DNA of 63,576 nucleotides from Selenomonadales bacterium (lineage in GTDB: Bacteria > Bacillota > UBA994): the NCBI GenBank assembly GCA_018335585.1, contig JAGXRZ010000042.1, positions 1 through 63,576 of the forward strand, written 5' to 3'. Positions 1-15,286 of the stretch are shown in pieces. Both the position numbers and the translations under genes were made by a program. Under the pieces are notes generated by a model. That model worked only from the letters and a program-made list of their open reading frames with translations, made no database searches and was not told where the DNA came from. Position 1 is the stretch's first letter; the number at the start of each line of letters is the position of its first letter.

Positions 1-257
1 GTTGTGGTGCCGCGTGGGCCGGTAGCGGTCCGCGTGGCGTCGTTCCACGACACGGTCGCCCCTAGTGCCTCAAAGATGGCGCGGAAGGGCACTAGTGTGC
101 GGCCGCCCTGGATAACAGGCGGCACATCGAGGTTCATGTACTGGCCGTTGAACATGACGCGGATGGCCGGTTGCTGCGCGGCGGTCAGCGTGATGCCGCC
201 TAGGCCGCTCAAGAGCAGCAAGGCGATGGTAGAGACGATGGCAACTCTCTTGATCAA
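1..257 (-). CDS. Copper amine oxidase N-terminal-like domain protein (partial)
   Basis: The gene is cut by the left edge of the window. Reading the minus strand from a TTG at 257, the product starts MIKRVAIVSTIALLLLSGLG, a signal peptide, and continues with a segment containing VPPVIQGGRTLVPFRAIFEA and LGATVSWND. This is the pattern of the copper amine oxidase N-terminal-like fold, a surface-domain repeat common in secreted clostridial proteins that is not itself an oxidase. A GGAGGAG ribosome site lies 7 bases before the TTG (264-270). The protein is probably exported. Its C-terminal function lies outside the window. The start codon is inferred from the ribosome site and the signal peptide. 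Confidence 0.75.
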   Translation of the reverse strand, partial: MIKRVAIVSTIALLLLSGLGGITLTAAQQPAIRVMFNGQYMNLDVPPVIQGGRTLVPFRAIFEALGATVSWNDATRTATGPRGTT

Positions 258-365
258 CGCGATCTCCTCCTATATTTGGCACACTCTTTGGCGGTGCCTA
301 AAGAGTTGTTCTATTTCTATTCGCCAAATCCTTCTGACATATCGCCGTAGCGCGACTTAATTTTA

Positions 366-941
366 TTAGGCTTTGCGGCTGCCCGGCTTAACTACGGGAA
401 GGCCTTGCGCACAAAGTGGGCATTCTTCCGGCGTATACGTCGTGACTTTCATCGTTAGGAGAGCTTCGGTGCGGTAGTTGAGGTCAACCTGCCCGCCGCT
501 CCTGTCAACCAATAAGCCGACACCCACGATTGTAGCGCCCGCCCCTTCGACTGCCGTCAGTACTTCTTTGACGGAACCGCCTGTGGTCACGATATCCTCT
601 ACAACCAGTACCCTATCTGTCGGCTCAATCACAAACCCACGCCTAAGCTGTAAGCGCCCGTCTTCGCGCTCTAGGAAAATCGCGCGTACTCCCAGCGCGC
701 GCGCTACCTCGTAGGCAATAATGATGCCGCCGATAGCCGGGCCGACCACCAGTGAGATGCCGTCGTCACGAAAACGCCGCGCAATTTCTTGGCAGAGCAC
801 AGCCGTGTGTTTGGGATGTTCGAGGAGGCGAAACTTCTCTACATACAGCCCACTGTGCAAGCCCGAGGTCAGGCGAAAGTGCCCCTCCATAAATGTGCCG
901 GTAGTCTTAAACAACGCGGTGATCTGGTCTTGGTTAATCAT
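366..941 (-). CDS. pyrE: Orotate phosphoribosyltransferase, copy A
   Basis: PyrE converts orotate and PRPP to orotidine 5'-phosphate. The 191-residue product carries the PRPP-binding loop VVEDIVTTGGSV (about residues 112-123) and a C-terminal CPLC pair typical of this PyrE subgroup. It differs from the copy at 4409-4984 at only about 10 residues. A GTG lies immediately before the ATG, but AAAGGGG is well spaced for the ATG and the other copy lacks the GTG, so I chose 941. This copy is detached from the pyr operon by two opposite-strand genes, and I see no clear promoter of its own. It may be a redundant or diverging paralogue. Confidence 0.9.
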   Translation of the reverse strand: MINQDQITALFKTTGTFMEGHFRLTSGLHSGLYVEKFRLLEHPKHTAVLCQEIARRFRDDGISLVVGPAIGGIIIAYEVARALGVRAIFLEREDGRLQLRRGFVIEPTDRVLVVEDIVTTGGSVKEVLTAVEGAGATIVGVGLLVDRSGGQVDLNYRTEALLTMKVTTYTPEECPLCAQGLPVVKPGSRKA

Positions 942-963
942 CACAGTATGCCCCTTTCTCTTG

Positions 964-990
964 AAGCAAAAGGCTCCGTCCCTTTTGCTT
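964..990. repeat. 27-bp hairpin repeat R1, copy upstream of pyrE A
   Basis: A perfect 10-bp inverted repeat, AAGCAAAAGG / CCTTTTGCTT, encloses a 7-base loop CTCCGTC. Identical copies occur at 5007-5033 and 27791-27817. Here it sits just upstream of the start of pyrE A, in the same place relative to the gene as at pyrE B, so it belongs to the duplicated segment. It could act as a terminator or an RNA stabiliser in either direction. Confidence 0.8.
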
Positions 991-1019
991 TTCTTAAAGG
1001 GCTTGTTCCGTCAATTCAC

Positions 1020-1047
1020 TTGACAGGCAGGGGGGGGGTGATATGTT
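1020..1047 (+). promoter_or_regulatory. Putative promoter with a 9-G tract in the spacer
   Basis: TTGACA (1020-1025) is followed 16 bases later by TATGTT (1042-1047), about 95 bp before the start of the PHP-domain gene. The spacer contains an uninterrupted run of nine G (1030-1038). The -35 is a perfect match but the -10 is only 4 of 6, so this is a prediction. Slippage in the G run would change the -35/-10 spacing. Confidence 0.4.
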
Positions 1048-1141
1048 AGATATGGTGACTATTGCTAAATAAAGGCAGAATGGGGGTAATGCGTAACGCC
1101 TGCTTAGTTGCCGGAATAAGTTTTTAGGAGGATGTGTTCCT

Positions 1142-3052
1142 ATGTTGGCAGGGAAAGGTTTGCGGCTCGCGAATAGTGCTGCAAGACGCGTTGTGTTCGT
1201 AGCGCTCTGTTGTTTGCTGCTTGTGTTTTCACTAACTGGGTTTACTCTTTCCGCTCCGGTTGACCTTGAGCCGGAGCTAGCGATTCTAGCGCCGGTGGTG
1301 CAGACATACGATCTTGATGCTTATCGGTGGGATTTCCCTTTTGCTCTCGTCGGGTTTGGCCCCGGCGCACGTACAGCCCGCTTGACAGAGTTGAGGATTG
1401 ACGGACACGACTTGCTCGGGACCATCCCCATGGCGCAAAGAACCATGCCGGTCCATCGTCTGGATGAGGAGATTGCCCCTGCGGCATTTAGGAGTTGGAA
1501 CAACTATCGGCAGCGGGCGTCAGTCCTGCGCGTACGCAATGACGAGCGCCAGGCCCTATCCACCGCCGAAGAGCGTGAGTTTAGGGAAGGCAACGCGCGT
1601 ATGCGCGAGGTAATGCGTCGGCGCGGCGAGATTGCTCCGCTTAACATCGCACTTAATGTGTCCGAACTGCCTTTTCGCGTTGCCGCTGACGGCCATTACC
1701 GAGTGCGGGCCGTAGTGGAAAGGGGAGGGCGAAGTGCTGTTTGGGAAGGTGAAGTGCTGATTGTCGACATCGAGCCGGTAACTACCAATTCCACCTGGAC
1801 CCCGGCAGACCTGCATCTGCACAGTACTTTTGCTTTAGATGGCATATTCACGCCTGGGGAGCTAGCATCAAGGCTGGCAAACAGGGGTTATTCAATCGGC
1901 TATATTACCGACGAGCCAGCAGGGCGGTATATAACCACTCAACCCATATTGCCAAGAATGAGCGGAACAGGGCGTCGGGGGACAGCAATAGAGTCAGGAA
2001 CAAACGCCTGGCTGACAGCAACTTTTGGGAACGACCGTGTGCGTTATCTACCATATCTAGCAACATGGGAAGACTATCACGCTAGAGTCCGAGCAGCCTC
2101 GTCTGCGCAGATAGCAATGTTTCCCGGGGTTGAAATCGCTGCTTCTACAGCAAACCATACTCACACCGATCACAATGGACATGCCCTGGCCTATGGTATC
2201 CAAAACCTGGTTGGCATTGGCGGCGCATCAGGCTTTGAAATTTCAGGGCTAAGATACAGCTGGTTTGCACCCAACACTTTGCTCGAGAACATTAACAACA
2301 ACAGGCTTGGGTGGTCCTCCGGAGGTATTGCGCATCCGGGCGCACAGCCGCCTTTAGGTTACCCGTGGAACATTTGGTCTCCCACGCTTTTTGCCCGTTA
2401 CGACGGCTTTGAGTTAATGAGCGGGGCGCTGCAGACCAATTTTTCTCCAGGCTTTGGTCCTATGCAGAAATGGAGGGAAGAGATTGTTGCGCGTCTTAAC
2501 GCAACCTTTGCGGGTAATGGCTTCCCCTCCGCTAGGACAGGCAGCGATTGGGCAGATGTTCTAAGCCAATTCACTAGCATCCCTTTCGTCACCCATATCG
2601 GGTTATCCCAGTGGTGGGGTGACATGACACAACTTGGGCAAGAGAACGTCGATGCGGCTTTGCGCGCGGGGCGAACAGTGGCCAGCCGTTTCGGCGGCCT
2701 AGCAATTCTAAGGCTCAGAGACGCGCAGGGTGTCCCACAGGAAATAGGCTCGCGGTTTACTATGCCGGTTCATGCCACGGTGAGCGGCGAGATTACACTG
2801 CGCGCGGCACGCACCGGGTTTTACCGGGTGAGAGTTATCGAAAACAGGAGTACGCGTACTGGGTTAGAGGACACAAGGCACGACTCTTGGCACACCGTCT
2901 CTTCTGGTCACTCCATAGTAGTACCTGTCAGCTTTAGCTTTAGCGGAGGACAACGTGCTTATCACGTGGTCGTAGAAGGCCAGGATCTAGAAGGACAAGG
3001 AGTAGCAATTGACACAATTTACACCAGCCCTATCTTTATCCGGCAGCCGTAA
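1142..3052 (+). CDS. Secreted PHP-domain (metallophosphoesterase-like) protein
   Basis: The 636-residue product has an N-terminal signal peptide (hydrophobic about 18-38). An unassigned region of about 180 residues follows, and then a PHP-type metal centre: DLHLHST at 223-229, ITDEP at 255-259 (the family usually has TDH), GVEIA at 329-333 followed by several histidines, and AHPG at 397-400. PHP domains hydrolyse phosphoesters with bound metals; an exported version with extra N- and C-terminal domains suggests an extracellular phosphatase, nuclease or glycan-related role, which is inference. AGGAGG at 1126-1131 supports the ATG at 1142. It and the next gene are wedged between the two pyrE copies and look AT-richer than the neighbours, consistent with insertion. 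Confidence 0.72.
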   Translation: MLAGKGLRLANSAARRVVFVALCCLLLVFSLTGFTLSAPVDLEPELAILAPVVQTYDLDAYRWDFPFALVGFGPGARTARLTELRIDGHDLLGTIPMAQRTMPVHRLDEEIAPAAFRSWNNYRQRASVLRVRNDERQALSTAEEREFREGNARMREVMRRRGEIAPLNIALNVSELPFRVAADGHYRVRAVVERGGRSAVWEGEVLIVDIEPVTTNSTWTPADLHLHSTFALDGIFTPGELASRLANRGYSIGYITDEPAGRYITTQPILPRMSGTGRRGTAIESGTNAWLTATFGNDRVRYLPYLATWEDYHARVRAASSAQIAMFPGVEIAASTANHTHTDHNGHALAYGIQNLVGIGGASGFEISGLRYSWFAPNTLLENINNNRLGWSSGGIAHPGAQPPLGYPWNIWSPTLFARYDGFELMSGALQTNFSPGFGPMQKWREEIVARLNATFAGNGFPSARTGSDWADVLSQFTSIPFVTHIGLSQWWGDMTQLGQENVDAALRAGRTVASRFGGLAILRLRDAQGVPQEIGSRFTMPVHATVSGEITLRAARTGFYRVRVIENRSTRTGLEDTRHDSWHTVSSGHSIVVPVSFSFSGGQRAYHVVVEGQDLEGQGVAIDTIYTSPIFIRQP

Positions 3053-3095
3053 CTTCTCTGCGGTATAGTAGCGCAATTGACTCACTCCTCTGGTG

Positions 3096-3128
3096 CCCGG
3101 GCCGATGGGCATAATCCATCGGCCCGGG
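3096..3128 (+). terminator. Strong 13-bp hairpin after the PHP-domain gene
   Basis: CCCGGGCCGATGG (3096-3108) pairs perfectly with its reverse complement at 3116-3128 around a 7-base loop. There is no T run, so it is either a weak or factor-assisted terminator or a 3'-end stabiliser for the upstream message. Confidence 0.55.
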
Positions 3129-3208
3129 ATGCCTACTTGGCGAGGCGATGGGCACACTTATAGCTTGGTTCTTCTACCATGTACGCAAAAAGGAGGGGCA
3201 CAGAGGAA

Positions 3209-4375
3209 ATGACCCTCGAAAAGGTAAAGGCGTGGCTGAACTTGCGGGCGAGCTCTGTCAAGCGCATTGCGCACACTGAGCACAACATCGCCACGTGTAC
3301 TATGGCAGCTACCTTGCTTGCGGGCATATGGATATTTGTGGCTGTTGGTGTCGGCATAGGTAGCATTTATGTCTACTGGGCTAGTGCTGTCGTTTTGCTT
3401 GTGCCGATAGTCTTGGCCATAGCAATAGGTACTTCTGATGGATATGCCTTGGCGTTCCTGCCCTACTTAGTGATAGTCGTACTGGATCTCTATATGAGAA
3501 TACACATGTACATAGCAGGTCCGGGTAGGCCGGAGTACGTGTACCGAGTTGTGCTTGTCTTGTTCATTGTAATCTATATCGCACCATGGGTACTTATCGC
3601 TTGGTTACGCGGTCTCAAGGCGGAAACAAGACTCCAGGTTTACCGTTTCGTTTGCGCGCTGCAAATGCTGCTGCTGCTGGGTGCCGTCTACTACTTCACC
3701 TTTCAATACGAGGTGCGGCATTTGGCCGATCCGGTGGTCAGGGTGCGGAGCGTTAGGATTTGGGCTATGCCGCTTAGTGAGCCTCTAATAGAGGAAGATG
3801 CTGCCTATGTTGTCGACCGGAACAGGCGCCTTTACCGCGTTGACTTGGCTACGGCGCGGAAGCGGTTGGTGGTGCAACTTCCAAGGCTAACCCGCGCGGA
3901 GTTGGGGGTGCTTGCGGACGCAGATATCTACCCCTGGATGGACCCCTACGGCTCCCCTTGGGCAGGAAGACTGACCAGAACGGACGCCGGCGCGCTGCTG
4001 CTGCGCTACATGCACGACCGCAGCGTGAGGTTTGTGGAGGTTACGGTTAACGAAGAAACCGGAGAAGTCAAGTGGCAAGCGCACCGACTTGAAGAAGGTG
4101 TGCCCTTTGATGGCTGGCCACCGCCTCCCCTCCCTACTCCCGCCATACGTCGGCATGGACAAATATTGGCTACAGTAGGAGTAGTCGGTGCCAGGCCACG
4201 CGACGGACACAACATTTCTATTACAGGGGAAACTGTCCATACCACCCTTGCTTCCCTCGGAAGGTTTGAGTCTGCAGGGATTCATGCCAACTACGGCTGG
4301 GCTTTGGTTAGGGCACACCACAGGTGGTTCGAGCAGATAGGCAGGCTGTTGATTATATCGATTGAAGAGCGTTAG
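3209..4375 (+). CDS. Membrane protein of unknown function
   Basis: I do not recognise this family. The 388-residue product begins with a basic segment and then four to five hydrophobic helices in roughly residues 30-200. A soluble C-terminal half of about 200 residues follows; it contains RNRRLYRVDLAT, which resembles a beta-propeller or quinoprotein-like strand. An ATG at 3179 is possible, but AGGAGG at 3191-3196 lies downstream of it and serves the ATG at 3209. The gene lies between the PHP-domain gene and pyrE B and faces the latter end to end (33-bp gap). Together with the PHP gene it forms the block that separates the pyrE copies. Confidence 0.6.
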   Translation: MTLEKVKAWLNLRASSVKRIAHTEHNIATCTMAATLLAGIWIFVAVGVGIGSIYVYWASAVVLLVPIVLAIAIGTSDGYALAFLPYLVIVVLDLYMRIHMYIAGPGRPEYVYRVVLVLFIVIYIAPWVLIAWLRGLKAETRLQVYRFVCALQMLLLLGAVYYFTFQYEVRHLADPVVRVRSVRIWAMPLSEPLIEEDAAYVVDRNRRLYRVDLATARKRLVVQLPRLTRAELGVLADADIYPWMDPYGSPWAGRLTRTDAGALLLRYMHDRSVRFVEVTVNEETGEVKWQAHRLEEGVPFDGWPPPPLPTPAIRRHGQILATVGVVGARPRDGHNISITGETVHTTLASLGRFESAGIHANYGWALVRAHHRWFEQIGRLLIISIEER

Positions 4376-4408
4376 GGCGTTTTATGTTCCGCTTGCTTCA
4401 TTTTTGTT

Positions 4409-4984
4409 TCAGGCTTTGCGACTTCCCGGCTTTATGATTGGAATGCCTTGCGCACAAAGTGGGCATTGTTCCGGCGTATACGTAGTGACCTTCATCGTTA
4501 GGAGAGCTTCAGTGCGGTAGTGGAGGTTAACCTGCCCTCCGCTCCTGTCAACCAATAAGCCCACACCCACGATGGTAGCGCCAGCCCCTTCGACTGCCGC
4601 CAATACTTCTTTGACAGAGCCGCCAGTCGTCACAATATCCTCGACCACCAGCACCCTATCAGTCGGCTCAATCACAAACCCACGCCTAAGCTGCAGGCGA
4701 CCATCTTCGCGCTCGAGGAAAATCGAGCGTACTTTTAGTGCGCGCGCTACCTCGTAGGCAATGATGATGCCTCCGATAGCCGGGCCGACTACCAGTGAGA
4801 TGCCGTCATCGCGAAAACGCCGCGCAATTTCTTGGCAGAGCACAGCCGTGTGTTCGGGATGTTCGAGCAGGCGAAACTTCTCTACATACAGCCCACTGTG
4901 CAAGCCCGAGGTCAGGCGAAAATGCCCCTCCATAAATGTGCCAGTAGTCTTAAACAACGCGGTGATTTGGTCTTGGTTAATCAT
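4409..4984 (-). CDS. pyrE: Orotate phosphoribosyltransferase, copy B (operonic)
   Basis: This is the operon-linked PyrE, the last gene of pyrC-pyrF-pyrK-pyrD-pyrE. The 191-residue protein has the PRPP loop VVEDIVTTGGSV and the C-terminal CPLC pair. It transfers ribose-5-phosphate from PRPP to orotate. It starts at ATG 4984 behind AAAGGGG and lies 60 bp downstream of pyrD, with an R1 hairpin in the gap. Compared with copy A it has E for K, K for G, S for A, A for T, N for D, H for N, Q for E and three conservative changes near the C terminus. None falls in the catalytic loop, so both copies should be active. Confidence 0.93.
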   Translation of the reverse strand: MINQDQITALFKTTGTFMEGHFRLTSGLHSGLYVEKFRLLEHPEHTAVLCQEIARRFRDDGISLVVGPAIGGIIIAYEVARALKVRSIFLEREDGRLQLRRGFVIEPTDRVLVVEDIVTTGGSVKEVLAAVEGAGATIVGVGLLVDRSGGQVNLHYRTEALLTMKVTTYTPEQCPLCAQGIPIIKPGSRKA

Positions 4985-5006
4985 CGCAGTATGCCCCTTT
5001 CTTTTG

Positions 5007-5033
5007 AAGCAAAAGGCTCCGTCCCTTTTGCTT
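5007..5033. repeat. 27-bp hairpin repeat R1, copy between pyrD and pyrE B
   Basis: Same sequence as 964-990: AAGCAAAAGG, loop CTCCGTC, CCTTTTGCTT. It lies inside the pyr operon between pyrD and pyrE B and could attenuate or process the message at that point. A shorter CTTTTGCTT echo follows to about 5045. Confidence 0.8.
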
Positions 5034-5044
5034 TACCTTTTGCT

Positions 5045-5962
5045 TCACTTGTTTCGTGCGGCGCCTACGAGGTCCTGTATGTTGGCGACGCCTTGTTTGG
5101 ACGCGTACTCCGCGAGACCTGTGGTGATCTCCGGGATGACCGCTGGGTTAAAGAAATTGGCAGTGCCCACGGCGACACACGTAGCTCCGGCCAAGATAAA
5201 CTCTGCGGCATCCTGCCAGGTGCTAATGCCTCCCATGCCAATGATTGGGACCTTGACGGCTCCGGCCACCTGCCAGACCATGCGCAAGGCAATTGGCTTT
5301 ATCGCCGGGCCGGAAAGCCCGCCAAAGATATTGTTCAGCACAGGGCGTCTAGCCTCGACGTCGATGGCCATAGAGAGCAGCGTATTGATGAGCGAAATGC
5401 AGTCAGCACCCTCTGCCTCGACACTTTGCGCTATCGAGGCAATATCTGTGACATTGGGCGATAGTTTTACCGTCAGCGGCAAGGAAGTTTGGCGACGTAC
5501 GAGGCGTGTCACTCCGGCTGCCGTTTCGCAAGTTGCGCCAAAAGCCATGCCGCCTTGCTTGACATTAGGGCACGAGATATTGACTTCAAGCATGCTCACA
5601 CCCGGCACCCCGTTAAGACGTGCGGCGAGCTCGGCGTATTCTTCGGCGGTATTGCCGGAGATGTTGACGATTACTGGCACACCCATGTCGCGCAAAAAAG
5701 GCAGTTCCTCCGCTATAAACCCTTCCACGCCAGGGTTTTCTAGGCCGATGGAGTTTATAAGTCCTGCTGGCGTTTCGCTTAGTCTGCGGCCGCTGTTGCC
5801 GTAGCGCGGCTTAAGCGTTATCCCCTTAACGACCACCGCGCCTAGCAGCCGCAAGTCGTAAAATGAGTCAAACTCGCGGCCGTAGCCGTAACAGCCAGAC
5901 GCCGACAGTACTGGGCTACTCAGGGCTAAGCCGCAAAGCGCAACCTTAAGTCTCTCGCTCAT
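5045..5962 (-). CDS. pyrD: Dihydroorotate dehydrogenase, catalytic subunit (class 1B)
   Basis: PyrD oxidises dihydroorotate to orotate with FMN; the class 1B enzyme passes electrons to the PyrK subunit and so to NAD+. The 305-residue product has the active-site cysteine in NISCPN (about residue 130), the FMN/phosphate motifs GMGGIST and VAVGTANF, and the early VVKGITLKPR motif. The start at ATG 5962 overlaps the pyrK stop in an ATGA arrangement, with GGAGG just upstream; a longer start at 5983 would lie inside pyrK. Overlap with pyrK implies translational coupling of the two subunits. The cysteine at the base position and the adjacent pyrK both point to class 1B. Confidence 0.95.
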   Translation of the reverse strand: MSERLKVALCGLALSSPVLSASGCYGYGREFDSFYDLRLLGAVVVKGITLKPRYGNSGRRLSETPAGLINSIGLENPGVEGFIAEELPFLRDMGVPVIVNISGNTAEEYAELAARLNGVPGVSMLEVNISCPNVKQGGMAFGATCETAAGVTRLVRRQTSLPLTVKLSPNVTDIASIAQSVEAEGADCISLINTLLSMAIDVEARRPVLNNIFGGLSGPAIKPIALRMVWQVAGAVKVPIIGMGGISTWQDAAEFILAGATCVAVGTANFFNPAVIPEITTGLAEYASKQGVANIQDLVGAARNK

Positions 5963-6801
5963 AATTTGACCTCCTCCGCCCACATCACCGGGCCATCGGT
6001 GCAGACATGCCAGTAGCCGTCGCTGCCTGCACGCTCACACGTGCAACCTAGACACACCCCTAGGCCGCAGGCCATATGTTCTTCGAGGCTTAGTTGGAGA
6101 GGCAGCTTGGCTTCTTGGCAAATTTGCTTTACGGCACTTAGCATGCCGCGCGGGCCGCAAGCGTAAGCTAGGGCAAAACGTGCGCCTGTGTCGACGGTTG
6201 CTTGCAGCTGCTCGGTCACTAAGCCCCCGTGTTCGTAGCCTCTGTCTTCACTGCAACAGAGAACGTCCGCCCCAAGGGCCGCTAGTTCCGCTTGGTCAGC
6301 CAAATCGACAGCTAAGCGCGTGCCGTAGAGGATACTGACTGCAATTTCTCGGGCCAAAAGCCCAGCTGCCAAAGGATGAAACGGCGCGATGCCCATTCCC
6401 CCGGCGACAAGTAGCACGCGCTTCAAACTGGTTGGCCCCAGCGGACTGTCTTTTCCCGGTAGAACAAATCCTTTCCCCAGCGGCCCGAGCGCCGTGAGCT
6501 TGTCGCCAACCTTGACGCGGCGCAAAAGCTCCGTCCCTCTCCCCACCACGCGGTACAACACCGCAAATGTGCCGGCCTCTCTGTCGATGCGGTTAAAGCT
6601 AAAGGGGCGCGGCAGAAGGGGGTCGAAGCTGCCGGGTGCGCCGCACTTAACATTAACGAACTGCCCGGGAGCTGCTCCTAGAGCTATTTCCGGCGCAAAA
6701 AGCGTCGTACGAAAGATATTAGGCGATATCTCCTCCTGACGTATGACTGTGCATTGCGCAAACTTAGCGGCATCTCTACTTACTACGTTCTTACTCACCA
6801 C
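5959..6801 (-). CDS. pyrK: Dihydroorotate dehydrogenase electron-transfer subunit
   Basis: PyrK carries FAD and a [2Fe-2S] cluster and links PyrD to NAD+. The 280-residue product has the flavin-binding motif RPFSFNRID (about residues 65-73), a nucleotide-binding stretch VLLVAGGMGIAPFHPLA (about 127-143) and the cysteine set CGLGVCLGCTCE with a further Cys before the C terminus. Tandem GTG codons at 6801 and 6798 are both possible; GGAGGTG upstream favours the first. The gene overlaps both pyrF (start side) and pyrD (4 bp), so the block is tightly co-translated. Confidence 0.93.
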   Translation of the reverse strand: MVSKNVVSRDAAKFAQCTVIRQEEISPNIFRTTLFAPEIALGAAPGQFVNVKCGAPGSFDPLLPRPFSFNRIDREAGTFAVLYRVVGRGTELLRRVKVGDKLTALGPLGKGFVLPGKDSPLGPTSLKRVLLVAGGMGIAPFHPLAAGLLAREIAVSILYGTRLAVDLADQAELAALGADVLCCSEDRGYEHGGLVTEQLQATVDTGARFALAYACGPRGMLSAVKQICQEAKLPLQLSLEEHMACGLGVCLGCTCERAGSDGYWHVCTDGPVMWAEEVKL

Positions 6802-7733
6802 GCGAGCTTGTTCACCTCCGCTAGTGCCTTGTTAATGGCTTCCCGTGAGGCAAGCGCGGCGGCGCGTGCGGCGTCACGGTAATCGCCGCCTTGCTTGTGA
6901 TAGGCAAAAATAATTTCGCGCGCCGAATTTACCACGGCTCCCAAACCATCGGGGTTAAAGCAGGGCAAGACATCCCGCGCAGTCCCGCCTTGCGCACCGA
7001 ACCCCGGCACCAAAAAGTAGTTGTGCGGCATGATGCGCCTGAGCCGTTCGGCTTCGGCGGGGAAGGTTGCGCCGACTACGGCGCCTACGGGCGAGTAGCC
7101 CCGCTCGTCAAGTTCTGTGCGGCCGAGTGCGTGGCACATTTCCCCTACTATTTCGTATACCTTTCGCCCGCCGCACTCTAGGTCTTGCAGCAGTGAGCCC
7201 CCGGGGTTAGACGTTTTCACCAGCACAAAGATTCCCCGCCCGAAAGTCTGGCAGCGCGTAAGCAGCGGCTCTAAGCTGTCTGGTCCGAGGTAGGGGTTTA
7301 CCGTCAGGGCATCGGCGACAAAGGCACGCGCCTTCAGGTCGCTGATTGTCGTCTCGCCTAAATAGGCGTCGGCGTAGCTTTCGGCAGTGGAGCCGATGTC
7401 GGCGCGTTTGCCGTCAGCAATTACGAGGAGTCCTCGCTCACTTGCATACCTAGCGGTCGCCGCGAAGGCTTCCATGCCCGGCACGCCTAGTTGCTCGTAA
7501 CAGGCGAGTTGCGGCTTTACGGCGGGGACAATCTCCGCGAGCGCGTCAATCAGGCCTTTGTTAAACTCGAGCGTAGCTTTAGCGGTCGCTTCCATTGTGT
7601 TTCCGAGCTCGGCGCGCCACTTGGCTGTAATTTCCCGTGGCAGAAGTGCGGGTCGAGGGTCTAATCCCACTATCAGGTGACACCTCTTAGCCAGAACAGC
7701 CTCCGCTAGGCGGAGAGAAAACGCTTTAGTCAT
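6795..7733 (-). CDS. pyrF: Orotidine 5'-phosphate decarboxylase (type 2)
   Basis: PyrF decarboxylates OMP to UMP. The roughly 312-residue product belongs to the longer type-2 subfamily: it has the catalytic motif DGKRADIGSTAE (about residues 108-119), VGLDPRP near the N terminus and the phosphate-binding VPGFGAQGG. I chose ATG 7733, close to the end of pyrC, over an upstream ATG inside pyrC, because the family starts near this methionine. The first codons overlap the pyrC stop. Confidence 0.92.
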   Translation of the reverse strand: MTKAFSLRLAEAVLAKRCHLIVGLDPRPALLPREITAKWRAELGNTMEATAKATLEFNKGLIDALAEIVPAVKPQLACYEQLGVPGMEAFAATARYASERGLLVIADGKRADIGSTAESYADAYLGETTISDLKARAFVADALTVNPYLGPDSLEPLLTRCQTFGRGIFVLVKTSNPGGSLLQDLECGGRKVYEIVGEMCHALGRTELDERGYSPVGAVVGATFPAEAERLRRIMPHNYFLVPGFGAQGGTARDVLPCFNPDGLGAVVNSAREIIFAYHKQGGDYRDAARAAALASREAINKALAEVNKLAW

Positions 7734-9012
7734 GCACCACACCATCTTTCATCACAACTTGGCCTGCGACCATGGTCATTACCGGCCACCCCGTGAGACA
7801 TCGGCCGCCAAAAGGAGTGTTTCTTCCGAGAGAGTAAAACGTGTCAGGCTCTACGGTGCGTGTGAGTTTAGGGTCAATCAGCGTAAAGTCGGCCGTGCCG
7901 CCCACCACCAGAGCTCCGACCGGCAGCCCAAAAATCCTGGCCGGGCGCGTGGAAAGCAGAGCCACTAATTCGGACAGTCCTAACACTCCCTTATCCACAA
8001 GTTCCGTCAGCAAGAGGGGCAGGGCAGTCTCAAGCCCGGCAATGCCAAAGGGAGCTTCCGCGTAGGGCAGGGCTTTTTCGTCTTTGTGGTGCGGAGCGTG
8101 GTCGGTGGCGATGCAGTCGATATAGCCTTCGCTAACAGCAGCCCGAAGCGCCAGAACGTCTTCCCATGCGCGCAGGGGAGGGTTCATTTTGGTGTTGGCG
8201 TCTGCCGCATCGACGTCACGGTCCGTCAACACAAGGTGGTGCGGCGTCACTTCGCAGGTTATGTCTAGCCCGCTGTCTTTAGCTTGCTGGATAAGGAGCA
8301 TAGCGCCCTTGGTGCTGACGTGGGCGATATGGAGCTTGCCGCCTGTCGCGCGGGCGAGGGCAATGTCGCGCGCCACCATTGCTTCTTCGGCGGCCGCGGG
8401 GATACCGGGCAAGCCTAAAGCCTCGGCCCGCTTACCGGCATGCATCGCACCTCCTGCGGAGAGCGCTTTGTCCTCGCAGTGAGCAACTATGGCCAGGCCG
8501 TGGTCGCGCGTGTTATGCAAGGCTTCGTAAAAAAGGCGCGTGTTCGTCACCGGTTCTCCGTCATCGGAAAGCGCGACTGCGCCGGCTTCGCGCAGTTCCC
8601 GGTGCGGTGAGAGTGTTGCTCCTTTCTGTGCAAGCGTCACGGCAGCAAGCGGATAGCAGCGTACGGCAGCTTTTTTGGCTAATTCGCGCGCTTGTTGCAC
8701 TAAGGCCACGCTGTCAACGGGCGGAAAGGTGTTAGGCATGGCGCAAACAGCGGTAAACCCACCTGCGGCTGCGGCTCGGCACCCGGTCTGTATAGTCTCT
8801 TTATGTGTTCTGCCCGGTTCCCTCAAATGCACGTGTAAGTCGACAAAACCGGGCACCAGCACTTTGCCGTCGCCTTGAATGACTTCGACCCCGTTAAAGT
8901 TAAGATTTGTCCCTACCGCGGCGACTCGCCCGTCTACCACAAGCACATCGGCTACCTTGTCTATGTCGTGTGCCGGGTCAAGCAAGCGGGCGCCGGTAAT
9001 GACAGTTGGCAT
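7726..9012 (-). CDS. pyrC: Dihydroorotase (class I)
   Basis: PyrC closes carbamoyl-aspartate to dihydroorotate. The 428-residue product has the zinc motif DLHVHLREPG (about residues 58-67), a later GHIAHVST-like segment with its histidine, and the catalytic-Asp motif IATDHAPH (about 303-310). The start at ATG 9012 is set by GGGGGTG at about 6 bases; an upstream in-frame ATG at 9072 would run back through the attenuator hairpin. It is the first gene of the minus-strand pyr operon and is controlled by the leader at 9027-9107. Confidence 0.94.
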   Translation of the reverse strand: MPTVITGARLLDPAHDIDKVADVLVVDGRVAAVGTNLNFNGVEVIQGDGKVLVPGFVDLHVHLREPGRTHKETIQTGCRAAAAGGFTAVCAMPNTFPPVDSVALVQQARELAKKAAVRCYPLAAVTLAQKGATLSPHRELREAGAVALSDDGEPVTNTRLFYEALHNTRDHGLAIVAHCEDKALSAGGAMHAGKRAEALGLPGIPAAAEEAMVARDIALARATGGKLHIAHVSTKGAMLLIQQAKDSGLDITCEVTPHHLVLTDRDVDAADANTKMNPPLRAWEDVLALRAAVSEGYIDCIATDHAPHHKDEKALPYAEAPFGIAGLETALPLLLTELVDKGVLGLSELVALLSTRPARIFGLPVGALVVGGTADFTLIDPKLTRTVEPDTFYSLGRNTPFGGRCLTGWPVMTMVAGQVVMKDGVVHD

Positions 9013-9026
9013 GGCTTCACCCCCAT

Positions 9027-9107
9027 GAAAATAGGCTTCCCTGCCGGAGCGCAGGAAAGCCGTGTAGCCCAAACGTATTGCGGGCGACTTCCTTCCTAGC
9101 CTCTCCG
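9027..9107 (-). promoter_or_regulatory. PyrR-type attenuator of the pyrC operon
   Basis: Read on the minus strand, the leader contains GCCCGGAGAGGCT (within 9095-9109 region), which fits the known PyrR RNA-binding consensus UCCNGNGAGGYU at nearly every fixed position, followed by AGGAAGG as in Bacillus leaders. About 30 bases downstream lies a terminator: an 11-bp stem formed by 9051-9061 and 9034-9044, then TATTTTC. PyrR bound with UMP stabilises the upstream hairpin and favours termination. I could not fold the alternative antiterminator with certainty. Confidence 0.75.
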
Positions 9108-9139
9108 GGCGCGGTTAAAGGAGTTCGTGTACCGAGTAA

Positions 9140-9168
9140 ACACTACCGCAGCCGCAAGCGGATGTCAA
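9140..9168 (-). promoter_or_regulatory. Promoter of the pyrC operon
   Basis: On the minus strand TTGACA (9168-9163) is followed after 17 bases by TAGTGT (9145-9140). Transcription would start near 9133 and read through the attenuator. Its -35 lies only 8 bp from the -35 of the divergent pyrB promoter. Confidence 0.65.
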
Positions 9169-9176
9169 GCGACCCC

Positions 9177-9203
9177 TTGACACCTCGCCGCAAAAGGTAT
9201 AGT
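9177..9203 (+). promoter_or_regulatory. Promoter of pyrBI
   Basis: TTGACA (9177-9182) precedes TATAGT (9198-9203) with a short 15-base spacer; TAGTTT at 9200-9205 gives the standard 17. The transcript would begin near 9210 and carry a leader of about 170 bases with the PyrR site. Confidence 0.6.
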
Positions 9204-9243
9204 TTATCTACAGAAGCGCCTTTAATTCCGCCGCACGCGTTGC

Positions 9244-9316
9244 GGCATAGCCCTGTGAGGCTGGGAAGGCAAGCGGTGTTAGCTATGCCCTCCCATGTTC
9301 CGGGGAGGGCCTTTTG
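9244..9316 (+). promoter_or_regulatory. PyrR-type attenuator of pyrBI
   Basis: The leader contains AGCCCTGTGAGGCT (9249-9262), matching the PyrR consensus ARUCCNGNGAGGYU at 13 of 14 positions, followed by GGGAAGG. It sits in a hairpin closed by GGCATAGC (9244-9251) and GCTATGCC (9282-9289). The 3' arm overlaps the start of an intrinsic terminator: GCCCTCCC (9287-9294) pairs with GGGAGGGC (9303-9310), then CTTTTGCT. This is the layout of a PyrR-controlled attenuator. Confidence 0.85.
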
Positions 9317-9379
9317 CTGTGCCAAAGAGTGTTTGGGACTCTGCCACAGGAGAAGCTACGGTAAGGAAGGGGAATTTTC

Positions 9380-10309
9380 ATGCAGCTTACGGGTAGACAC
9401 TTGATTAGCCCTAACGACCTGACGCTAGACGAAATTAACGCTATACTTGTTCTGGCCCACGACATGCGGCAGAATCGCCGCGCTTATGCTGAGGCCTGCC
9501 GCGGCAGTATCTTAGGCACACTCTTTTACGAGCCTAGCACGCGCACTAAGCTTAGCTTTGAATCAGCCATGCTTAGGCTCGGTGGACAAGTCTTAGGCTT
9601 TGCCGACGCCAACACTTCCGCGGTAGCTAAGGGCGAATCGATTGCTGACACCGTGCGCGTGCTTGACGCCTATGCCGATGTCCTAGTCATGCGCCATCCC
9701 AAGGAAGGTGCGCCCAAGCTTGCTTCGCTCTACTCGCGCGTGCCGGTCATTAATGGCGGCGACGGCGGCCACCAACACCCGACGCAAACATTGACCGACC
9801 TCCTGACAATTGACACCTACAAGGGGCGCATTACTGGACTGCGCGTAGCTTTTTGCGGCGACCTAAAGTTTGGCCGCACGGTTCATTCCCTCATCGAGAC
9901 ACTGGCACGCTATCCCGGATGTGAGTTTTACCTCGTCAGCCCAGAGGAACTAGTTCTGCCTGAGCGCCTAAAACAGCACCTTGAGCGCACTTTTAACTGC
10001 TCACTAACCGAGTGCCGCCGCCTAGAAGAAGCCTTGCCGCACGTAGATGTCCTGTATATGACGCGGATTCAGCGCGAACGCTTCTTCAACGAAGCGGATT
10101 ACCAGCGCCTAAAGAACAGCTACATCCTCGATGCCGAGAAGATGCGCCTTGCCAAGCCGGATATGATCGTGATGCATCCCTTGCCGCGCGTCAATGAAAT
10201 TGCCTATGAAGTAGACCAAGACGAAAGAGCCGTTTACTTCCCGCAGGCCGAGCTAGGCGTGTATGTGCGGATGTCGTTAATCTCACACTTATTGGGGGTG
10301 AACAACTAA
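9380..10309 (+). CDS. pyrB: Aspartate carbamoyltransferase, catalytic subunit
   Basis: PyrB joins carbamoyl phosphate and aspartate. The 309-residue product has the carbamoyl-phosphate motif STRTKLSFE (about residues 52-60), HPTQTLTDL (about 134-142) and the aspartate-loop region TRIQRERF. AAGGAAGGGG precedes the ATG. The stop codon overlaps the pyrI ATG by one base (TAATG), so the catalytic and regulatory chains are coupled. Expression is expected to respond to pyrimidines through the upstream attenuator. Confidence 0.95.
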   Translation: MQLTGRHLISPNDLTLDEINAILVLAHDMRQNRRAYAEACRGSILGTLFYEPSTRTKLSFESAMLRLGGQVLGFADANTSAVAKGESIADTVRVLDAYADVLVMRHPKEGAPKLASLYSRVPVINGGDGGHQHPTQTLTDLLTIDTYKGRITGLRVAFCGDLKFGRTVHSLIETLARYPGCEFYLVSPEELVLPERLKQHLERTFNCSLTECRRLEEALPHVDVLYMTRIQRERFFNEADYQRLKNSYILDAEKMRLAKPDMIVMHPLPRVNEIAYEVDQDERAVYFPQAELGVYVRMSLISHLLGVNN

Positions 10310-10728
10310 TGGAGGTAACAGCAATTAAGGCGGGCATCGTCATTGACCATATCGCCGCGGGGAAAGGGCTGCATATCTTTAATAAGCTCAACTTAGCTGC
10401 CTTAGGTTTTCCCGTCGTCCTCCTAATGAACGTTTCAAGCAAGCGCATGGGCAAGAAGGACATTATTAAAATCGAGAACTTCACCGCAGTCGACACCGCC
10501 ATGCTCGGCCTCATAGACCCGACGCTTACGGTGAATGTAATTGAGAACTGCGGCGTCGCAAGAAAAGTACGCGTGAGCACCCCGGCCGTAGTCAAAGGGC
10601 TGTTTGCGTGCAACAACCCCCGCTGCGTCGCTAACGCCGACCCAAACGTCATCCCCACTTTCCACCTGCACGACGAGAAAGCGCGCAGTTATGTCTGTGA
10701 ATACTGCGAAGAACTGACGCGCGTGTAG
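10309..10728 (+). CDS. pyrI: Aspartate carbamoyltransferase, regulatory subunit
   Basis: PyrI binds nucleotides and gives allosteric control to PyrB. The 139-residue product has the nucleotide-binding domain first (GIVIDHIAAGKGLHIF) and a C-terminal zinc domain with CNNPRC and CEYC, the four zinc cysteines. Many Firmicutes lack PyrI, so this organism should have a regulated dodecameric enzyme in addition to transcriptional attenuation. Confidence 0.95.
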   Translation: MEVTAIKAGIVIDHIAAGKGLHIFNKLNLAALGFPVVLLMNVSSKRMGKKDIIKIENFTAVDTAMLGLIDPTLTVNVIENCGVARKVRVSTPAVVKGLFACNNPRCVANADPNVIPTFHLHDEKARSYVCEYCEELTRV

Positions 10729-10745
10729 AGAAGGAGTGCAAGTAA

Positions 10746-11537
10746 GTGCTCATCGATACAGCACAACTGGTGCAAGCTATGCCACGGCGTCATTCCACTC
10801 GCCGCTTCGCGGGGCAGGTCATCGAGGCTAGTCTACTTAATGCCTTGCTGCAGCCTGCAAACCTGCGTACGCTCGGCCTAGTCGATTGCCGCTCCGTGTT
10901 GCTGTGCGACTCGGCTGGTTTTGACGCTGTTTTTACCGGCATTGTGGGCAGTTACGGCAAGATTTGCCGCGCAACGGCAGTCTTGGCGTTGCTCGTACCG
11001 GCTGATAGCGACAACCGCGGGCAATTAGAGGCGGGATACCTTGGCGAGCAGTATGTGCTTCGCGCAACTCACCTCGGATTAGCATCGTGCTGGGTGGGAG
11101 GGACTTTTAACTTCAAGTCTCTGATTAAGCGCTTCGCCCTCAGCCCGGACGAAGCTGTCGTCAGCGTCATTGCGCTTGGGTTTGCCGGGGCAAGCCATGA
11201 CTCCGTCGGTAGGCTGCTTCACGCTGTCGTCCGGCGCAAGAAACTTGCACAAATCGCAACACCGGCCCTACTACAAGGACCGCCTTGGCTGCGCGCGTCG
11301 CTAGAGGCTGTGCGCATCGCTCCCTCGGCCGTTAACCTGCAGCCCTGGCACTTTTCCGGCACAAAGGAGCAGGTCGTGCTTAAACCGACTCGCAAAACTG
11401 CTTTTGCTTACATTGACCTTGGCATTGCTATGCTGCACTTTGCTCTCGCCGCCGAGCACGCGGGGCAAACTGGCACATGGGCAATAGAACCAGATGGCTT
11501 TGTGTTTGTCGCGACAGAAAATACCCTGTCAGTGTGA
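10746..11537 (+). CDS. Nitroreductase-family protein (TM1586-like)
   Basis: The 263-residue product starts with RRHSTRRF, the FMN-phosphate-binding motif of nitroreductases. It resembles the internally duplicated TM1586-type branch: a second motif APSAVNLQPWHF appears at about residues 195-206. The substrate is unknown. It starts at GTG 10746 behind AAGGAG and lies 17 bp after pyrI, so it is probably in the same transcript, yet no pyrimidine role is evident. The last codons overlap a CRP/FNR-type site for the next gene. Confidence 0.75.
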   Translation: MLIDTAQLVQAMPRRHSTRRFAGQVIEASLLNALLQPANLRTLGLVDCRSVLLCDSAGFDAVFTGIVGSYGKICRATAVLALLVPADSDNRGQLEAGYLGEQYVLRATHLGLASCWVGGTFNFKSLIKRFALSPDEAVVSVIALGFAGASHDSVGRLLHAVVRRKKLAQIATPALLQGPPWLRASLEAVRIAPSAVNLQPWHFSGTKEQVVLKPTRKTAFAYIDLGIAMLHFALAAEHAGQTGTWAIEPDGFVFVATENTLSV

Positions 11538-11548
11538 TTTCGGTCACA
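11533..11548 (+). promoter_or_regulatory. CRP/FNR-superfamily operator
   Basis: TGTGA-N6-TCACA is a perfect inverted repeat of the CRP/FNR superfamily. A -10 hexamer TAAAAT lies at 11570-11575, so the expected start is near 11582 and the operator centre falls at about -41.5, the class II activation position. HcpR- or CooA-like anaerobic regulators use sites of this kind; the actual regulator is not in the window. Confidence 0.7.
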
Positions 11549-11607
11549 TTTTTCTGCGTACAGCCGCGATAAAATTAGCGCAGAAACCTTGAAAGGGGAT
11601 TTTAGAG

Positions 11608-12375
11608 ATGCCAGTACGCAAAATCATCAAGATAGACGAAGAGCTTTGTAACGGTTGTGGTCAGTGTGTGCCCGGTTGTGCTGAAGGTGCGCTACAGATT
11701 GTTGACGGCAAAGCAAAGTTAGTTAAAGAACAATACTGTGACGGCCTGGGCGCGTGTCTAGGCGAATGCCCAACCGGAGCGCTCACAATCGAGGAGCGCG
11801 AGTCAGACGCTTACGACGAAGCTGCTACCAACGAATGGCTAAAGAGCATCGGGCGCCCGACCGTCGGCGGAGCACATCACGCTGCGGAGGCCAAGCAGCA
11901 CGCGCCGGCGCATCAACCCGATTTGCCGTGTGGCTGCCCCGGCACAGCCATGAAGTCCTTTGGGAAGCGCCAAGCAGAACAGCCAGTTAACGCGCCTGCG
12001 AGTGCCGGTCGTTCTGAACTTACCCAGTGGCCCATACAGCTTATGCTGGTGCCGCCGAGTGCTCCGTTTCTGCGCGAGGCTGACCTTCTACTCGCTGCCG
12101 ACTGCGTGCCATTTGCTTATCCCGATTTTCACAGAAAGATGCTTAAGGGACGCGCGTTGCTTATTGCTTGCCCGAAGCTCGACAACGCCGAGCTCTATGT
12201 AGAGAAGCTTGCCGCAATGATTCGGCAGAATGACTTCCGCAGTATTACCATTGCCCATATGGAAGTGCCTTGCTGCTTTGGGCTTGGCCGCATCGTAAAC
12301 GAAGCCATCAAGCGTGCCGGTGTAAAAGTGCCCGTGATGAGCATTAACGTCGGCGTGGAAGGCGAGCTAAAGTAG
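11608..12375 (+). CDS. 4Fe-4S ferredoxin-domain protein
   Basis: The 255-residue product begins with two ferredoxin motifs: CNGCGQCVPGC (about residues 14-24) and a second set CDGLGACLGECP (about 44-55). A linker of about 75 residues with a CGCPGT cysteine cluster follows, then a conserved C-terminal domain with IACPKLDN and EVPCCFG. This architecture is common in anaerobes as an uncharacterised iron-sulfur protein. GAAAGGGGA precedes the ATG. The CRP/FNR-type site upstream suggests control by redox, CO or nitrosative signals. A hairpin terminator follows. Confidence 0.8.
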   Translation: MPVRKIIKIDEELCNGCGQCVPGCAEGALQIVDGKAKLVKEQYCDGLGACLGECPTGALTIEERESDAYDEAATNEWLKSIGRPTVGGAHHAAEAKQHAPAHQPDLPCGCPGTAMKSFGKRQAEQPVNAPASAGRSELTQWPIQLMLVPPSAPFLREADLLLAADCVPFAYPDFHRKMLKGRALLIACPKLDNAELYVEKLAAMIRQNDFRSITIAHMEVPCCFGLGRIVNEAIKRAGVKVPVMSINVGVEGELK

Positions 12376-12392
12376 TATTGCGTGTAAAACAA

Positions 12393-12431
12393 ACTCACGG
12401 CTTAAGCCTTGCGGCGAGCCGCGAGTTTTTC
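12393..12431 (+). terminator. Intrinsic terminator of the ferredoxin gene
   Basis: ACTCACGGCT (12393-12402) pairs with AGCCGCGAGT (12417-12426) with one mismatch, and is followed by TTTTTC. Confidence 0.8.
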
Positions 12432-12536
12432 TTTTGCGAGCAGGGAAACGGCCGAGTTTGTCGAATAGGTTATGAGTAGGGCAATAGAGCTGCCTTTGGT
12501 TCGATTCCCTGCTATTATGTGTGAGGAGCTGTATGT

Positions 12537-13175
12537 ATGGGCAGACAAGAGCGCAGGCGTCGCCTGCGGAAAGAGAAACCTTCATTACCGTGGGATTTGA
12601 TTATTGCAGCGGTTGTGCTGGTGGTGTTCATCGGCATCGCGGTATGGTCATACTTCTTCCCATTAATTACCGCGCAGTCCTACGCTGAAGGTAGCCCCCG
12701 CGTGCATCGACACATGATTAGTCGCGCCGTGCGTTGGCTTGAAGCAAAACCGGTACTTGAGGTCGTGTATAGCTACACTGATGAAAAGAATCAGGTCACG
12801 CAGTTCCACGTTAGGGAAGAAGGCTCCAAGATTACGCTTACCGACCCGCGCACGAAAGAAGCTAAGGAGCATGCCCCGGATACAGTGCCTGACACTTACG
12901 TTACTATTGCCGCGAAGCTTGCGCAGCTCAGGCAGGCCTTGCGCGACCCCGACTTTGTTCCCTCGCACCAAGAGCCAGAGCCCGGTGGGCACCAGATTCT
13001 GCGGCTCACTAAGCAGGTTGGTCAAGACGTAACGGAAGGTTTCCTGCTGCATTTTATGCCTGACCACAATATCGACGCGATACATTACTTCCGGCGTGTA
13101 GCCGACAACGTCTACATCCAGCGTTTCTACAGCGGGTTTATCACCGGTATTCCTGCGGCCGGAACCCAACCATAA
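12537..13175 (+). CDS. Single-pass membrane protein of unknown function
   Basis: I do not recognise this family. The 212-residue product has a very basic N terminus (GRQERRRRLRKEK), one transmembrane helix at about residues 20-44, and an extracytoplasmic domain of about 165 residues. The topology suggests an anchored domain facing outward. It starts at ATG 12537 after GTGAGGAG and has its own terminator, so it is monocistronic. Confidence 0.7.
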   Translation: MGRQERRRRLRKEKPSLPWDLIIAAVVLVVFIGIAVWSYFFPLITAQSYAEGSPRVHRHMISRAVRWLEAKPVLEVVYSYTDEKNQVTQFHVREEGSKITLTDPRTKEAKEHAPDTVPDTYVTIAAKLAQLRQALRDPDFVPSHQEPEPGGHQILRLTKQVGQDVTEGFLLHFMPDHNIDAIHYFRRVADNVYIQRFYSGFITGIPAAGTQP

Positions 13176-13184
13176 GAAGTGAGG

Positions 13185-13211
13185 CTGTCCCGTGCAAACG
13201 GGGCAGTTTTT
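13185..13211 (+). terminator. Intrinsic terminator
   Basis: CTGTCCCGT (13185-13193) pairs with ACGGGGCAG (13198-13206) around a 4-base loop and is followed by TTTTTG. Confidence 0.85.
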
Positions 13212-13237
13212 GCATTTCCGGCGCACAGTGGGACGAG

Positions 13238-13500
13238 GGGTTGCTGGCTCCTAGCTCTTGGCTCCTTGTAGAGGGAAGTGCCCAGTGCCCAGTGCCCAGT
13301 GCCCAGTGGAGTGGTGTCGCAGCGTTGCCGGTTCCTCTTTAACCTATCCACTTTTCACCTTTACACCCGCCAAGCTGAGTGCTGAGTGCTGAGTGCCCAA
13401 AATTCTACTAGGAGCCGAGAGCCGACAGCCGACAGCCCCCTCATCGCTCACAGCCCGTTCCCCTAGCGGCCAGCGGCTCCCACAAGCGGCACTACTCATG
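13238..13500. repeat. Heptamer-repeat island 1
   Basis: This gene-free stretch contains tandem 7-bp runs: GTGCCCA x4 (from about 13275), GTGCTGA x3 (about 13377-13397) and GCCGACA (about 13415-13435), plus degenerate GCTCCT/GGCT units. The linker GTAGAGGGAAG precedes the GTGCCCA run, as in other islands. No protein-coding potential is evident. It lies between a terminator and the marR promoter region. Confidence 0.75.
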
Positions 13501-13582
13501 ATAAAAAAAGGACAAGCGACATTTGTCATGATATAATATAATTACTGATAATGGCTGCTCGTTCCAACAAGGCTTAAGGCGG

Positions 13583-14104
13583 GTGGGTAATGTGAAGCAA
13601 ACCGATATCCTAAAGCACCTTACGGACCTCTTTATGCAGATTGGCGCTAGGGCTGTGGCCGAGCCTCTCGCGCGATCTTCGGCTGACCTGACAAACAGCC
13701 AGTTACTAGCATTGCGCTACATTCTCTTGCACCCTGATTGCTCATTGACTGCGCTTGCTAAAGGTTTGGCTATCTCTAATCCTGCGACCACGAAAGTTAT
13801 GGACAGACTTGAACGCAAGGGTTTGGTAGTGCGTGCCCAAGGCGCGGACCGACGGCAGACGATAGCATTGCTCACGCCTGCCGGGCGAGTCGAGGTGCAG
13901 AGGTACCTCAAACTCCAGATGGACGCTTTTGCCGAGCTTTTTGTCGCTATGACGCCTTCCGAGCGCGACTCGCTGCAAAAAGGGTTAGAGGCGCTCTCTG
14001 CTGCGGCCGTGCGGCAGTGGCCGGGGTGGCAGCAGCTGTGTTTACGTTGCGGTACAGGCTGTGCAGAAGCGGACTGCCCCCTTTTTCGTTACCGCGGGGC
14101 GTGA
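13583..14104 (+). CDS. MarR-family transcriptional regulator
   Basis: The 173-residue product has the winged-helix core of MarR: LTNSQLLALRYI (about residues 36-47), SLTALAKGLAISNPATTKVMDRL as helix-turn-helix (about 54-76; shown in part) and the wing with DRRQTIALLT. The C terminus carries a cysteine cluster CLRCGTGCAEADC that could bind metal or sense redox state. GTG at 13583 or at 13592 can start the gene; the ribosome site is weak. The AT-rich TATAAT-containing stretch just upstream (13530-13550) is a likely promoter and self-operator. Its last 16 bp overlap the convergent niaX gene. Confidence 0.85.
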   Translation: MGNVKQTDILKHLTDLFMQIGARAVAEPLARSSADLTNSQLLALRYILLHPDCSLTALAKGLAISNPATTKVMDRLERKGLVVRAQGADRRQTIALLTPAGRVEVQRYLKLQMDAFAELFVAMTPSERDSLQKGLEALSAAAVRQWPGWQQLCLRCGTGCAEADCPLFRYRGA

Positions 14105-14601
14105 CGCGCGCTAAGCGAGACCCCTGCCCGGCGTAAGCTATGGTAGAGCGACAGCGCAATTACCGCATCGACTACATGATGTAATAAAGTTCCTACCCCA
14201 ACCAGCACCAATGCTGCCTGTAGCGTATACCCAAAGGGTATAACCACCAGCGCTTCGCCCAGCGCATGGACAGGAGCGGTAACTGCGAAAACTTGCCAAG
14301 GCTTAGCGCCGCGCTGATACAGGAGTGCGCCAAGGACGCCAAAAACTATGTGAATGGATGCCCGCGCCGCAATTACCGGGGTTAATGTAATCAGGAACCC
14401 CAAGGTTGACCCAATGCCTACCGCGGCGGCTACGCTGGGGCTCACGAACATGGCCAGCATTACGGCTACGTGGCTACCCAGTGTTGCGCTAAAGGGTGGA
14501 ATGACAATCTGCAGGAAGCCCCGAAAAGCTAGCGGTATCAGGAGAGAGATTGCCGTCAGCAGTGCACCATAGAGGAGTTCTCGCGTCGTGGGTCTTATCA
14601 A
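14089..14601 (-). CDS. niaX: Niacin ECF transporter S component
   Basis: The 170-residue product is a small integral membrane protein with five to six hydrophobic helices and motifs such as VIPPFSATLGSHV and VHALGEALVV, as in ECF substrate-binding subunits. The divergent neighbour is a NiaR-type niacin repressor and a perfect palindrome lies between them, so niacin is the likely substrate. Uptake would need the shared ECF module encoded elsewhere. The start is a TTG at 14601 behind AAAGGGGGC. The niacin assignment is from context. Confidence 0.75.
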   Translation of the reverse strand: MIRPTTRELLYGALLTAISLLIPLAFRGFLQIVIPPFSATLGSHVAVMLAMFVSPSVAAAVGIGSTLGFLITLTPVIAARASIHIVFGVLGALLYQRGAKPWQVFAVTAPVHALGEALVVIPFGYTLQAALVLVGVGTLLHHVVDAVIALSLYHSLRRAGVSLSARHAPR

Positions 14602-14617
14602 CTAGACAGCCCCCTTT

Positions 14618-14637
14618 ACAAGTGTATATACACTTGT
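14618..14637. promoter_or_regulatory. Putative NiaR operator
   Basis: ACAAGTGTAT is followed directly by its reverse complement ATACACTTGT, a perfect 20-bp palindrome in the niaX/niaR divergent gap. It lies between the niaX ribosome site and tandem TATACT hexamers (14648-14658) on the niaR side. A repressor here would control both genes. Confidence 0.75.
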
Positions 14638-15257: not shown

Positions 15258-15286
15258 TTACTGACACAGCGAGGGAGGGAATAAGC

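Follow-up and report, generated by a model that had tools for sequence, protein, structure and literature searches.

The pyr locus and its two pyrE genes

The window analysed here, a stretch of 63,576 nucleotides, is the whole of contig C42 of a draft genome (69 contigs, 2.34 Mb, completeness 96%, contamination 4%) from a Selenomonadales bacterium. Its pyr operon runs leftward in the order pyrC, pyrF, a pyrK-like gene, pyrD and pyrE-B, beyond which lie genes X and Y on the plus strand, a second pyrE gene, pyrE-A, on the minus strand, and the start of a DUF3798-type gene (Table 1). The protein of the latter gene is 87% identical to the N-terminus of a protein encoded on contig C48 of the same assembly, which matches PF12683 and PF07833. 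A scan of positions 1–20,000 against Rfam found no RNA family. An oddity of the assembly is that some contig ends overlap at 100%, over 3.8 kb in C29/C40 (L213 1–3823, L214 14607–18429) and over 4.2 kb in C33/C52 (L215 8084–12285, L216 5776–9977).

Table 1. Features of the pyrE region in the window (C42) and REP/RAYT-like units on other contigs
Feature	Contig	Position	Strand	Remarks
DUF3798/copper-amine-oxidase-N-type binding protein, 5′ 85 codons	C42	3..257	-	gene truncated at contig end
pyrE-A, orotate phosphoribosyltransferase	C42	366..941	-	191 aa, intact; GTG start at 944 possible
REP-like palindrome 5′ of pyrE-A (R1 of the earlier note)	C42	963..991		1 mismatch to GAAGCAAAAGGCTCCGTCCCTTTTGCTTC; 10-bp stem on folding
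Promoter-like site of X, left edge of the X–Y unit	C42	1020..1047	+	TTGACA-16-TATGTT, TG ahead of -10
Gene X, PHP-like metallohydrolase (CehA/McbA-like)	C42	1142..3052	+	636 aa, hydrophobic segment at N terminus
Gene Y, membrane protein	C42	3179..4375	+	398 aa; N-terminal half with five hydrophobic segments
Gap, Y stop to pyrE-B stop	C42	4376..4408		contains TTGCTTCA (minus strand TGAAGCAA), read from the sequence directly
pyrE-B, orotate phosphoribosyltransferase	C42	4409..4984	-	191 aa; closes pyr operon; 60 bp to pyrD
REP-like palindrome, pyrD/pyrE-B interval	C42	5006..5034		pyrD stop overlapped by a half REP
pyrD, dihydroorotate dehydrogenase	C42	5045..5983	-	NF005574 428.8 bits, above cut-off
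pyrK-like electron transfer subunit	C42	5959..6801	-	NF000799 E 1.8e-48, below cut-off
pyrF	C42	6795..7745	-	TIGR02127 272.7 bits, above cut-off
pyrC	C42	7726..9072	-	TIGR00857 431.3 bits, above cut-off
REP/RAYT-like unit	C64 (L218)	1103-2199		copies 1103(-), 2171(+); PF01797 at 1345-1668
REP/RAYT-like unit	C60 (L217)	1931-3138		PF01797 between inverted GAAGCAAAAGGCTCCGTCCCTTTTGCTTC copies
REP/RAYT-like unit	G002:C269 (L219)	2909-3860		PF01797 between inverted GAAGCAAAAGGCTCCGTCCCTTTTGCTTC copies
REP/RAYT-like unit	G001:C12 (L221)	5027-6039		PF01797 between inverted GAAGCAAAAGGCTCCGTCCCTTTTGCTTC copies

The two pyrE genes, which an earlier note made from the letters of this DNA had described as differing at about 10 of 191 residues, are present as open reading frames and differ at exactly 10, with 50 of 576 nucleotides changed. 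BLASTN aligns pyrE-A with pyrE-B at 91.8% identity over 624 nt (368–991 versus 4411–5034), which excludes a chance resemblance. The flanking DNA was also said to be common to both copies, including the R1 hairpin. This is correct for the 5′ side (50 nt with two differences) and incorrect for the 3′ flanks, which are not homologous. Alignment of the duplication edges shows that the homology reaches upstream to the hairpin's outer edge and downstream no further than the stop codon; the duplicated unit comprises the complete ORF and 50 bp upstream, the 29-bp palindrome included. Both copies pass the equivalog cut-off (150.25) of the NCBIfam model TIGR01367 (pyrE_Therm), with 210.9 bits for pyrE-A and 212.2 bits for pyrE-B, and retain all columns invariant among nine homologues, the PRPP motif VLVVEDIVTTGGS among them. 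Thus, neither copy looks decayed. Both are predicted to encode intact enzymes under purifying selection (dN/dS about 0.1), and they probably form an isoenzyme pair. No sigma-70-like promoter was found for pyrE-A, the best score lying below the shuffle mean, in line with the suggestion that this copy is cut off from the pyr promoter. A salvage role of pyrE-A with the neighbouring transporter is speculative.

The DNA between the copies had been thought to be AT-richer, which is only weakly true: positions 1142–4375 have 54.7% GC versus 57.0% for the window, and pyrE-B itself has 54.7%. The GC3 of X (0.538) is the lowest among 27 genes measured; that of Y (0.599) is ordinary.

REP-like palindromes, the X–Y unit and the ancestral gene order

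The palindrome upstream of pyrE is dispersed. GAAGCAAAAGGCTCCGTCCCTTTTGCTTC has 25 strict matches in this genome, versus none for the reversed control, and tens of matches to its family are found in each of four members of the genus. In addition, PF01797 (IS200-like, RAYT-type) transposase genes are accompanied by inverted palindrome copies on both sides at four places, two in this genome and one each in G001 and G002, which belong to the same genus (Table 1). Because the palindrome is dispersed and flanks transposase genes, we regard R1 as a REP-like repeat rather than a control element specific to the pyr genes. The palindrome copies lack the GT(A/G)G head tetranucleotide; one of their ends reads GTGAAGC or a similar sequence.

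Among the 61 genomes searched, two high-scoring pyrE genes were found in this genome only. G004–G007, from other genera of the family, have one pyrE each, closing the pyr genes, and X–Y does not adjoin it. G001–G003, from the same genus, seem to be devoid of pyrE, but their contigs break at that point: G003:C159 terminates 26 nt into pyrE, G003:C27 opens in the last codons of pyrE, followed by the palindrome and the DUF3798 gene, G002:C38 terminates past pyrD, and G001:C14 opens within the palindrome 5′ of DUF3798. These breaks hinted at a second pyrE in the sister genomes, a candidate that was dropped when pattern searches of G003 gave one 5′ and one 3′ end. The single pyrE of G004–G007, together with the single pyrD-side and single transporter-side pyrE end of G003, supports a lineage-specific duplication, as the earlier note had proposed; the same two-copy layout in distant relatives, which it had named as contrary evidence, was not found in the relatives compared. 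In G003, REPs stand on both sides of pyrE in identical orientation. In this genome, the REP 5′ of pyrE has the opposite orientation to that in G003, and there is none 3′ of pyrE-A. The ancestral order in the genus was likely pyrD, palindrome, pyrE, palindrome and DUF3798, taking the two G003 contigs as adjacent, and the DUF3798-type gene is likely the ancestral neighbour of pyrE. In G005, a member of another genus, pyrE and a DUF3798-ABC transporter are adjacent but convergent (C39, L133 8060–14236), an adjacency hinting that the two are functionally connected with the uptake of pyrimidines or nucleosides.

The genes between the pyrE copies were described in the earlier note as encoding a secreted PHP-domain protein (X) and a membrane protein (Y). 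X matches the domain model of the CehA/McbA family of PHP metallohydrolases (NF038032, E 2.9e-10) and contains the motifs DLHLHS and HTHTDHNGH, but scores 40.1 bits versus a curated cut-off of 80; its match to Pfam PHP (E 0.0017) is under the gathering score. A TM-like stretch covers residues 9–43. The X–Y pair is also found in G004:C43 and G006:C27, in other surroundings and with no further neighbouring protein in common. In all three genomes, DNA homology starts at ~1019, the −35 box of X (TTGACA at 1020), suggesting that X–Y travels with its promoter. Given this promoter-like site of its own and the different location in two relatives, X–Y is a separate unit. A paralogue of Y is present, unlinked, on contig C40 of this genome. 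Remnants or broken copies of X occur in G001, G004 and G006, suggesting that X decays frequently in relatives; the gene is split or stop-interrupted in G004:C43 (L137 8477–10523) and G006:C105 (L126 1330–3163). In G001:C34 (L171 3539–4111), a remnant of X (residues 8–44) lies between two inverted REPs, and a REP replaces the 5′ end of X. Phage, plasmid or defence cargo was considered for X–Y and rejected, since searches of viral contigs and plasmids yielded no relative of X, and those of phages no relative of Y; PHROGs and PADLOC gave no match for either protein.

Origin of the duplication

The duplication had been called recent. Near-identical copies are not seen, and pyrE-A and pyrE-B have diverged with a dN of 0.026 and a dS of 0.27–0.32. 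Between this genome and the sister species G003 and G002, the dS of pyr genes is 0.73–1.45 where computable. Since the dS of the two copies is lower, they would have split, assuming no gene conversion, after the separation from the sister species, making the duplication younger than that separation, yet not very recent. The residue common to the outgroups G005 and G004 is kept by pyrE-A at positions 44, 84, 181 and 184 and by pyrE-B at position 153. The polarity of the two copies is not firm, because G003 resembles pyrE-B at residues 181 and 183.

The differences between the copies are patchy and densest at the 3′ end (P about 0.01; third positions alone P 0.095), which makes it possible that gene conversion took place or that the origin is mixed. 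Conversion of the 5′ half of pyrE, a first impression from the alignment, failed in third-position tests (P 0.095–0.2). A mixed origin would mean that the pyrE and X–Y of a related strain entered through a single crossover in pyrE, leaving two hybrid copies around X–Y. Consistent with such an entry, a dS of about 0.3 is what would separate related strains or close species, the differences are spread unevenly over the gene, and the pyrE end on C48 is nearer to pyrE-A (4 of 118 positions) than pyrE-B is. However, the donor would have to be circular or doubly homologous with just pyrE and X–Y, and none was seen; nor do the uneven differences mark a clear single crossover point. We consider this origin possible, if doubtful.

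Contig C48 opens in the 3′ end of a third pyrE, of which the first 90 nt are identical to the end of pyrE-A before the sequences diverge. There follow a hairpin missing from A, a DUF3798 gene in full length, and genes for an ABC ATPase and two permeases. The hairpin-like AACAAGAAGAACCGTCCCTTTTGTTCT lies 3′ of pyrE in C48 (L005 112–150) and is cleanly missing 3′ of pyrE-A (350–370). Relative to the window, C48 differs at 4 of 118 positions in pyrE, 4 of 108 in the spacer and 38 of 257 in DUF3798. Its pyrE represents the variant of a co-occurring strain or else an additional copy. In the latter case, the pyrE-DUF3798 block itself would have been duplicated, C48 being a true second locus and the pyrE copies three. 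The presence of a pyrE 3′ end with a DUF3798-ABC operon within the same bin agrees with this, but the full DUF3798 gene is the only one found in the assembly, and its 5′ part differs from the window by 14.8%, against about 3.5% in the adjoining pyrE and spacer, a pattern that another strain's variant could match. Such a second locus is very unlikely.

The same contig bears on the question of whether pyrE-A and pyrE-B belong to two strains that co-occur and were merged into one contig, or whether one copy was mis-assembled. The 90 exact nucleotides shared by C48 and pyrE-A ahead of their divergence would fit an artefact, as would the overlaps of 3.8–4.2 kb between contig ends and the breaks of sister genomes at pyrE (in G003) or past pyrD (in G002). 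Against it, the X–Y junctions on either side are unique sequence, and identical stretches between the copies reach at most 53 nt, so that no long exact repeat joins them. We therefore regard an artefact as unlikely.

The earlier note had also raised the possibility that a mobile element integrated at the end of pyrE and regenerated its target. As in gene-end integrative elements that regenerate their target, pyrE flanks the extra DNA on both sides, and a 7-bp direct repeat, TGTTCCG, is found at 1004 and 4385. Unlike in such elements, the full gene and its hairpin are duplicated instead of an att-sized end, no att core or att-like repeat with partial target duplication was found at the locus, and there is no recombinase: X and Y are the only long ORFs between the copies, neither matches a recombinase family, and the note itself had seen no integrase. 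The repeat is not significant (P 0.07 versus shuffled flanks), and we do not claim a target-site duplication around X–Y. The lack of X relatives in viral contigs and plasmids, and of Y relatives in phages, also speaks against integration. With the whole ORF and its 5′ hairpin doubled and no integrase or transposase ORF in between, gene-end integration is not supported and is extremely unlikely.

The best explanation, in which we have moderate confidence, is that [REP + pyrE] was duplicated locally at REPs, with X–Y now between the copies; the anatomy can be read from the contig, and the mechanism is our proposal. In the ancestor of the genus, a single pyrE would have closed the pyr operon, with one REP between pyrD and pyrE and another between pyrE and a DUF3798-type transporter gene. 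In this lineage, [REP + pyrE] would then have been doubled locally, most likely through unequal recombination or slippage between the REPs flanking pyrE, and X–Y, with its promoter-like site, would have settled between the copies in opposite orientation, presumably after the tandem had formed. As a result, pyrE-B would have remained in the biosynthetic operon and pyrE-A would have been left adjoining the DUF3798 gene. The REP upstream of pyrE-A stands at the joint between the copies and bounds their homology, which fits a REP-mediated tandem duplication, and TGAAGCAA, just 3′ of the pyrE-B stop, matches a REP arm and is possibly a remnant of the downstream REP. On the other hand, a tandem intermediate was not seen in the genomes compared, the reversed REP 5′ of pyrE and the missing REP 3′ of pyrE-A depart from the arrangement in G003, C48 has a different hairpin 3′ of its pyrE, and REPs being common, the one beside pyrE could be incidental. 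A local duplication retains from the earlier note the lineage-specific doubling with a separate two-gene unit, without its recent date and its gene-end integration. It is also conceivable that a RAYT copied a housekeeping gene bounded by REPs, [REP + pyrE] travelling between REP ends as a passenger. If true, REP/RAYT systems could duplicate ordinary genes, but we consider this exceedingly improbable.

Comparison with known systems

The duplication is genuine and lineage-specific; it belongs to a known kind and does not demonstrate a new mechanism. The locus represents a well-preserved single-gene duplication bounded by a REP, in which both copies were kept and diverged under selection and the operon is apparently split between them. 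Classic REP-mediated tandem duplications are large, fresh and unstable, whereas here the unit is one gene, the copies differ at about 9% of their DNA and two genes lie between them. What the locus shares with REP-mediated tandem chromosomal duplication is a dispersed palindromic REP at the edge of the duplicated segment; the precedent is the work of Shyamala, Schneider and Ames (1990), as cited in PMC11708052 and PMC7661048.

The palindromes resemble REP/RAYT systems (PMC2817692, PMC3733652) in combining a multi-copy short palindrome with IS200-like transposase genes between inverted copies, the arrangement by which REP/RAYT units are defined (PMC2817692). They differ in the missing GT(A/G)G head and in the host, which is Bacillota-like, whereas RAYTs meeting the criteria of a 2010 survey were confined to gammaproteobacteria (PMC2817692). 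The locus thus suggests that a Bacillota-like genus has a REP/RAYT-like system, beyond the gammaproteobacteria of that survey.
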